Part shown: one piece after another, positions 28,764 through 30,753 of the stretch | How the letters are laid out: each line of letters starts with the position of its first letter | Position numbering within the stretch: the stretch's first letter is position 1 | Assembly: GCF_018449635.1 (NCBI RefSeq) | Contig: NZ_JAAVUV010000011.1 | Coordinates: 1-64,000, forward strand | Direction: 5' to 3' | Source: Caballeronia sp. dw_276 | GTDB lineage: Bacteria; Pseudomonadota; Gammaproteobacteria; Burkholderiales; Burkholderiaceae | DNA: 64,000 bases | Position numbers and translations under genes: made by a program | Notes under the pieces: generated by a model | Databases searched by the model: none | Seen by the model: only the letters and a program-made list of their open reading frames with translations | What the model was told of the DNA's origin: nothing

Positions 28764-29192
28764 TTAGATCTCGAGCGCTTTAGGCTGTTGAGCCGTATGC
28801 GGATGCGTTGCGCCAGCGTAGACCTTGAGCTTCTTGATCATAGCGTAGCCGAGCGGACCTTTCGGCAACATGCCCTTAACGGCTTTCTCGAACGCGCGGC
28901 CCGGGAAGCGTTCTTGCATCTTGTTGAACGTCGTTTCGTAGATGCCGCCCGGATAGCCCGAGTGACGGTAGTACTTCTTGTCAGTACCCTTGTTGCCCGT
29001 GACGCGCAACTTGCTGGCGTTGATGATGACGATGAAATCGCCAGTGTCGACGTGCGGGGTGAACTCGGGTTTGTGCTTGCCGCGAAGTCGGGCGGCCACT
29101 TCACTGGCGACACGTCCGAGAACCTTATCCGTCGCGTCAATCACGTACCATTCACGCGTCACCTCATGGGCTTTTGCGGAAAACGTCTTCAT
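28764..29192 (-). CDS. rplM: 50S ribosomal protein L13
   Basis: A 142-residue L13 starting [20 protein letters not shown], with [18 protein letters not shown] and the signature YRHSGYPGG...MLPKGPLG. Start 29192 is set by homology. The frame is open for 33 more codons upstream to an ATG at 29291, only about 15 bases after the predicted transcription start; that part is leader, not L13. In E. coli this operon is repressed by L13 binding its leader. A strong promoter is at 29313-29342. Confidence 0.97.
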
Positions 29193-29452: not shown

Positions 29453-29512
29453 GAAAAAAAGCCCGGGCCTTGGGCTCGGGCTGAATCCACCTAGGAGGAG
29501 GTGGAGGAGACA
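29453..29512 (-). ncRNA. candidate small RNA with anti-Shine-Dalgarno hairpin loop
   Basis: A minus-strand unit of about 60 nt. It has a sigma-70-like promoter (29519-29547), a first hairpin with a 7-bp perfect stem TCCACCT/AGGTGGA and loop CCTCCT (29486-29505), and a Rho-independent terminator AGCCCGAGCC-CAA-GGCCCGGGCT plus seven T (29453-29482). The 5' part also reads CTCC-TGTCTCC, so two C/U-rich anti-ribosome-site stretches are exposed. sRNAs with such CCUCCU loops are known in other proteobacteria, and I recall similar Burkholderia sRNAs, but the identity is not verified. No ORF fits. It lies between rplM and the OsmC gene. Confidence 0.7.
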
Positions 29513-29518
29513 GGAGCA

Positions 29519-29547
29519 AGTATATGAACTGGGTTTGTGCAAAGCAA
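29519..29547 (-). promoter_or_regulatory. promoter of the candidate sRNA
   Basis: Minus-strand TTGCTT (29542-29547), a 17-base spacer and TATACT (29519-29524). Start predicted near 29512. Confidence 0.7.
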
Positions 29548-29843: not shown

Positions 29844-30266
29844 ATGGAATGCAAAGTTAGCTGGATGGGACAAGACGGAATGGCGTTCGCCGCAGAAACG
29901 GGCAGCGGCCATCTGGTCACCATGGATGGCGCGCCGGAGGGCGGCGGACGCAACTTATCCCCGCGTCCAATGGAAATGGTCCTTCTGGGAACGGGCGGCT
30001 GCACGGCGTACGACGTCGTGATGATCCTGAAGAAAAGCCGTCAGGAAGTCGTCGGTTGCTCAGTGACGCTCAAAGCCGAACGCGCGAGCGAAGATCCGAA
30101 GGTTTTCACGAAGATCCACTTTCACTTTACGGTGACGGGCAAGAACCTGAATCCGGCGACCGTCGAACGCGCAATTACGCTTTCGCACGACAAGTATTGC
30201 TCGGCGTCGATCATGCTCGCGAAGACGGCCGAACTCACGCATTCGTTCGATATCGTTCCAAGCTGA
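29844..30266 (+). CDS. OsmC/Ohr family protein (YhfA-like)
   Basis: A 140-residue OsmC-fold protein. It has the RNLSPRPMEMVLLGTGGCTAYDVVMIL helix with one of the two family cysteines (in GGCTAYD), and the second cysteine in HDKYCSASIMLAKTA. Two cysteines in these places make a peroxidase-type active site plausible. It resembles E. coli YhfA, a member without a settled function. A terminator follows 28 bases later. Confidence 0.88.
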   Translation: MECKVSWMGQDGMAFAAETGSGHLVTMDGAPEGGGRNLSPRPMEMVLLGTGGCTAYDVVMILKKSRQEVVGCSVTLKAERASEDPKVFTKIHFHFTVTGKNLNPATVERAITLSHDKYCSASIMLAKTAELTHSFDIVPS

Positions 30267-30323: not shown

Positions 30324-30337
30324 CTTTTTGAAGAGTC

Positions 30338-30753
<416 letters not shown>

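Follow-up and report, generated by a model that had tools for sequence, protein, structure and literature searches.

What is the short, strongly folded element that lies between rplM and an OsmC-like gene in Caballeronia sp. dw_276, and how would the 5′ end of its RNA product be formed? In the window, by which we mean the whole 64,000-nt stretch of DNA that was analyzed, the element sits where the original prediction had placed it, with rplM as its downstream neighbor (ribosomal protein L13, from open reading frame and translation; 28764–29192, minus strand) and the open reading frame of an OsmC-like protein as its divergent neighbor (29844–30266, plus strand). The same region contains a bacterial class A RNase P RNA (RF00010, 277.9 bits; 30336–30752, minus strand) near the osmC-like gene. 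Read directly along the minus strand, the order is TTGCTT-N17-TATACT, 7 nt, and then GTCTCCTCCACCTCCTCCTAGGTGGATTCAGCCC..., with GTCTCC beginning at 29511. The −35 element occupies 29542–29547, the −10 element lies 17 nt from it at 29519–29524, and the 7-nt gap between the −10 and the mature 5′ end, at 29512–29518, is the site of a leader in relatives; the promoter proposed from the sequence alone is present at 29547–29519 and is conserved in orthologues, and the proposed gap of about 7 nt follows it. A covariance match places the RNA at 29453–29512 on the minus strand, and, since transcription ordinarily starts 6 to 8 nt after the −10, we place the predicted +1 at about 29511, on the G of GUCUCC, for an RNA of about 59 to 60 nt. 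The predicted fold (MFE −25.9 kcal/mol; z = −4.19, with an equally good fold in 1 of 200 dinucleotide shuffles) leaves a free 5′ tail, UGUCUCC (29506–29512, minus strand), as the first putative anti-RBS site, followed by a first hairpin (29505–29486) whose perfect 7-bp stem, UCCACCU/AGGUGGA, exposes the loop CCUCCU as the second. Conservation supports both of these elements, and the terminator call and the fold agree on an intrinsic terminator at 29454–29482, made up of a hairpin at 29482–29460 and seven T residues at 29454–29460. The stem, the loop, and the strong terminator with its seven-base T-run had all been anticipated.

The family to which this RNA belongs is identified by a scan of the window against Rfam, in which two matches exceeded the curated cut-off, namely the RNase P RNA and RF02278, "Betaproteobacteria toxic sRNA," a name in which "toxic" is said to come from Kimelman 2012. 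The RF02278 match covers the full model (1–64) with 65.9 bits against a cut-off of 50 (E = 4.8e-11 in the window, 1.2e-12 genome-wide), and the fold and the model alignment together contain its features: two hairpins, the unpaired UGUCUCC tail, and a CU-rich first loop. Three other families that touch the same stretch were set aside as falling below their cut-offs: anti-hemB (RF02837, 25.3 versus 49.5 bits), NmsRb (RF02877, 22.4 versus 52 bits), and SorX (RF02784, 20.9 versus 46.6 bits). The match supports the earlier reading of the element as an independent sRNA gene that ends in its own terminator and exposes anti-Shine-Dalgarno sequences. The genome of the window itself holds six RF02278 matches at E ≤ 0.001, three of which exceed the cut-off; throughout the genus a match is present in 58 of 58 genomes and over the cut-off in 57, and the cut-off was exceeded in none of 14 control genomes. 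Two copies, L001 (G000:C2:113125–113188, plus strand) and L004 (C2:115023–115081, minus strand), lie less than 2 kb apart on opposite strands, and L004, which at 39.9 bits is below the cut-off, retains the 5′ tail but not the CU-rich loop. Nine genomes of the genus smaller than 5 Mb (G003, G005, G009, G019, G026, G027, G044, G045, and G050) have 1 to 5 copies, compared with 4 to 13 elsewhere, the count for G027 coming from a genome that is only 60% complete; G026 has no copy over the cut-off, and a copy in G044 (L087) has an altered tail.

The closest described relative is probably NcS27 of Burkholderia cenocepacia. The available text of two studies of strain J2315 gives four RF02278 RNAs, ncS03, ncS05, ncS27, and ncS62, and places NcS27 at complement(3666557..3666648), between BCAL3348a and BCAL3349 (PMC4603805, PMC5688073). 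A re-annotated start at 3666965 is given there for BCAL3349, and BCAL3348 is classed with the ribosomal protein genes. These coordinates, on which our assignment of orthology rests, agree with an rplM/osmC locus and suggest that the window copy is the orthologue of NcS27; the Burkholderia examples that the original prediction mentioned with reservation are real, as the RF02278 match attests, and the locus is apparently that of NcS27 itself. From the coordinates, 317 nt separate the NcS27 5′ end from the BCAL3349 ATG. In Burkholderia metallica the distance between the osmC ATG and the core is about 349 nt, and a leader of about 32 nt precedes the core; given a spacer of equal length, the 5′ end of the 92-nt form would fall about 32 nt ahead of GUCUCC and 6 to 7 nt after TATAAT. 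NcS27 is reported to be expressed as a transcript of 92 nt, from which a short form can arise by processing (PMC4603805, PMC5688073). It shares with the window copy its membership in RF02278, the inferred locus, the two hairpins, and unpaired CU-rich stretches complementary to RBSs, but it would have a leader, by our estimate of about 31 to 32 nt, that processing removes, whereas the window copy is leader-less and has a predicted direct start. The paralogues ncS03, ncS05, and ncS62 resemble the window copy in their double-hairpin layout of 57 to 67 nt but lie at other loci and are not the rplM/osmC orthologue. Because these paralogues are already short, the RNA product does not represent a new type, and the window RNA is a real, conserved sRNA of an already known family.

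In Bordetella pertussis, S17/S17S is reported to have a 5′ region 2 nt different from that of the RF02278 member bdhR1 and is termed homologous to the RF02278 RNAs by its authors; it too pairs with RBSs through single-stranded sites, but it is made as a precursor of 190 nt that RNase E trims to 67 nt, lies at the BP3151/coq7 locus, and is abundant in the Bvg+ mode (PMC11722255). Its Site 1, listed for nine of the 11 genes in Table 1 of that paper (PMC11722255), would, as we understand the text, be the counterpart of the tail of the window RNA. In Herbaspirillum seropedicae, Hsnc059, Hsnc063, Hsnc086, and Hsnc107 are RF02278 members among the sRNAs found by RNA-seq, but are longer, at 93 to 115 nt, with 24 to 47 nt preceding the family match (PMC7011215).

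Which part of the RNA is held constant at this locus was read from the osmC locus of 137 genomes, comprising 53 of the 58 genomes of the genus (two having no osmC match and three a partial match only were left out) and 84 others, which were hand-chosen from listed rows with genera g3, g12, and g24, among others, unsampled. The sRNA core adjoins osmC in all 137 loci, and rplM, whole or partial, was recognized in 130 of the 137 locus fragments. Of the 137 loci, 136 carry the 5′ tail GTCTCCTCC without a change, the exception being L087 from a 3.9-Mb genome; CCTCC occurs downstream of the tail, within the hairpin, in all 137, and the other loop positions vary. On this comparison of sequences the tail is conserved, not the loop alone. 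The original prediction had centered on the loop and had also noted a second C/U-rich 5′ stretch; that stretch, (U)GUCUCCUCC, is confirmed as a candidate site, with the refinement that it is more invariant than the loop, and its near-invariance suggests that the tail is a main site of pairing. Loss of the loop and promoter in close relatives, which had been named as evidence that would count against the gene, was looked for and not encountered. Within the window clade (10 loci, including its own), the 60-nt core has a mean pairwise identity of 0.993, compared with 0.555 and 0.443 for the flanks, and among the 53 loci of the genus the core value is 0.864, compared with 0.343 and 0.348. It is highly improbable that the element is no regulatory RNA but an isolated terminator or inverted repeat preserved for some other purpose, for example as the end of an unseen transcript; it does end in a strong terminator, but the tail, the loop, and the promoter are conserved as well, and family members are reported to be expressed and active (PMC4603805, PMC5688073, PMC11722255). 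Among 80 named osmC loci, the core adjoins the gene in 56, which belong to Burkholderia, Paraburkholderia, Caballeronia, Trinickia, Pandoraea, and Cupriavidus; in the remaining 24, mostly from Massilia, Janthinobacterium, Rugamonas, and their relatives, no core was found within the stretch examined. Five Cupriavidus loci (L221, L223, L227, L229, and L252) keep the core beside osmC and have a 75-nt upstream sequence unlike that of the other genera, and no similar promoter was seen within that distance; the Cupriavidus leader may be much longer, as in Bordetella S17.

We consider it very likely that the locus encodes a trans-acting sRNA of the RF02278 family, the orthologue of NcS27, in which an RNA of about 60 nt uses its tail and loop to block the RBSs of catabolic and transport genes, and which is here started directly. 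The RNA, about 60 nt long, would be transcribed from a vegetative-type promoter and stop at the terminator of the gene itself. Its single-stranded tail, (U)GUCUCC, and its CCUCCU loop are similar to the anti-Shine-Dalgarno sequence; both could base-pair with ribosome-binding sites rich in purines (GGAGGAGACA or shorter variants), and this pairing would block the translation of catabolic and transport genes and so slow growth when nutrients are short. In the window species the primary transcript would start at the mature 5′ end without processing; most relatives would make a longer primary transcript that carries a hairpin leader, and such a transcript is cleaved in NcS27 and S17, the two cases that others have studied. 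For the window organism, transcription, the start site, the use of Hfq, and the targets are all put forward here as predictions.

Candidate targets were sought in the genome of the window as complements of the tail placed before a start codon. The pattern GGAGGAGAC-N2-9-ATG occurs at 13 sites, compared with 0 for the reversed control, and all 13 open reading frames have at least 116 aa; for naming them, ten were scanned with Pfam and ten with NCBIfam, seven with both. They include a maleylacetoacetate isomerase, a 2-hydroxy-3-oxopropionate reductase, an S-methyl-5-thioribose kinase, a tricarballylate dehydrogenase, an oxalyl-CoA decarboxylase, an acyl-CoA dehydrogenase, an MFS transporter, a sigma-54 activator, and glyoxalase-like, metallo-beta-lactamase-fold, and FAD oxidoreductase proteins, together with a phosphotransferase-like and a sugar-binding-like protein whose matches are below cut-offs only. 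As candidates, these would fit the themes given for NcS27 in a 2024 review, phenylalanine and tyrosine catabolism and carbohydrate transport (PMC10987360), as well as the sigma-54 regulator BP2158, which is reported to be directly repressed by S17 at its ribosome-binding site (PMC11722255). The simpler pattern GGAGAC-N2-9-ATG has 435 sites in the same genome, compared with 66 for the reversed control, and the 13 sites, with their preceding GGA, make up about 3% of this common RBS type; specificity is therefore not claimed for them. With so common a type, ribosome-binding sites in this genome often match the sRNA tail. Among 45 GGAGGAG-N4-11-ATG sites, GGAGGAG runs on into AC in 13; the reversed control of this pattern has 18 sites. 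Targeting centered on the loop was dropped, AGGAGGAGG-N2-9-ATG having 3 sites compared with 2 in the reversed control.

The abundance of GGAGAC-type RBSs complementary to the tail also bears on the idea that the sRNA is mainly a general translation brake or growth-arrest factor, its 16S-like segment competing broadly for Shine-Dalgarno sequences. The segment CACCUCCU within the sRNA is also part of what we take to be the 3′-end pattern of 16S rRNA, a pattern that occurs once in this genome. We regard such a general role as possible but unlikely. The family is reported to inhibit the growth of E. coli when cloned, from which it takes its name (PMC4603805, PMC5688073), but S17S is described in the Bordetella study as leaving the exponential growth of E. 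coli unimpaired, so that "toxic" may not describe the natural role; deletion of S17 raised 92 genes, 70 of the 92 having RBS complementarity (PMC11722255). Over-expressed NcS27 is reported to slow the growth of planktonic cells, antisense to it accelerates their growth, and in biofilms it is given as having no significant effect (PMC5688073, PMC4603805); the slowing on over-expression is confined to some substrates, others being unaffected (PMC10987360). The CU-rich stretches of NcS27 are noted to match RBSs (PMC5688073, PMC4603805), and 55 to 80% of the predicted interactions of the B. cenocepacia RF02278 RNAs lie around gene starts (PMC4603805, PMC5688073).

The direct start predicted for the window species is read from the distance between the −10 and the mature 5′ end. 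This distance (to GTCTCC) is 30 to 48 nt in 100 of the 137 loci, which we call leader-bearing, and 6 to 7 nt in the other 37, including the window with 7 nt; no intermediate spacing was found among the 137. In L101 the −10 was hand-set to 37 nt, in L046 two candidate hexamers overlap (giving 32 or 38), and L156 and L157 have a weak −10 hexamer only, the class being unchanged for all four. At 130 of the 137 orthologous loci, the best −35 has TTG as its first three bases and is separated from the −10 by 17 nt; the −10 is TATACT, TATAAT, or a near form in most, with a few weaker or hand-set. A generic promoter scan did not list the sRNA promoter of the window, whose −35 equals the consensus at only three of six bases; we regard the promoter as supported because it is conserved across orthologous loci.

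In single-sequence folds the leader of the long form makes a hairpin of the type GGUUG...CAACC. With the pair register hand-set from these folds, 85.0% of cells in an alignment of 69 distinct leaders pair, compared with a shuffled mean of 76.9, and two-sided changes occur in six of the seven pairs (47 cells); the covariation score was reached by 0 of 500 shuffles, and shifting the partner by 1 to 3 columns lowers pairing to 33 to 52%. RNAalifold, on the other hand, returned no consensus structure for the 69 leaders, which counts against the hairpin, and for a subset of 41 gave a 6-pair hairpin with a small covariation term (−0.13). The mean folding z is −2.1 over the 69 leaders, −0.77 in the 16 of the window's own genus, and −0.86 in the three of g16. 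It is as if the leader hairpin, already weak in the long-form members of the genus, had decayed before the losses considered below.

How often the spacing changed was read from trees built from osmC and rplM only, in which seven rows have osmC alone and many g11 rows have partial rplM. A 137-row tree from a quick search needs four changes, three of them forced by well-supported branches, and a 99-row tree from a careful search (genera g1, g20, g10, and g13) needs three, with a bootstrap range of 3 to 5. In the latter, each short group lies on one side of a single branch: the window clade (10 rows, 86/94), a second short clade of the genus (25 rows, 90/87), and a g20 pair (99/92). The quick tree has six long loci inside the second short clade, implying regain, for which the careful tree has no need. 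A single origin of the two short clades of the genus was rejected by the AU test (p = 0.00098; 0.00015 on an earlier alignment). Spread of a short allele between clades was also rejected, each short promoter being nearest to long-form promoters and not to those of the other short clades, with mean best identities of 0.948, 0.934, and 0.965 to the former versus 0.74, 0.69, and 0.72 to the latter. Change counts alone cannot separate gain of the leader from its loss, and we take the long form to be the ancestral one, since it is present in 82 of the 84 loci sampled beyond the genus, among them those of the outgroup g10. On that reading the three or more changes would be three losses of the leader, and each of them would have brought the predicted start to the conserved 5′ end.

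The same comparisons bear on whether the short form might instead start upstream, from an unseen promoter, and be processed as in relatives, with the 7-nt spacing incidental. The poor −35 and the blank in the promoter scan are what this would lead one to expect, and relatives are reported to form the 5′ end by cleavage, but in sister species the long form has an almost identical promoter in front of it (the 0.948 of the window clade), the spacing is 6 to 7 nt in 37 of 37 short loci with nothing between the two classes, and three separate clades have reached it; we judge an upstream start to be quite improbable. In favoring a direct start, we think it probable, with moderate confidence, that a covarying 5′ hairpin leader was lost at least three separate times, turning a cleaved sRNA into a directly started one with the same 5′ end, and that selection holds the exact tail, the leader, its cleavage, and the resulting 5′ monophosphate being dispensable.

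The exact 5′ tail would then be what selection keeps. In the literature searched, which did not cover the main NcS27 paper, we found no description of a leader-less form of this orthologue, and the leader loss may be a modest, testable, and possibly new addition to what is known of the family. At this one locus, behind a near-identical promoter, some of the related species have the leader and others lack it, which amounts to a natural experiment, and a comparison of the two forms could tell whether processing and the 5′ monophosphate matter in themselves or whether processing merely sets the 5′ end.
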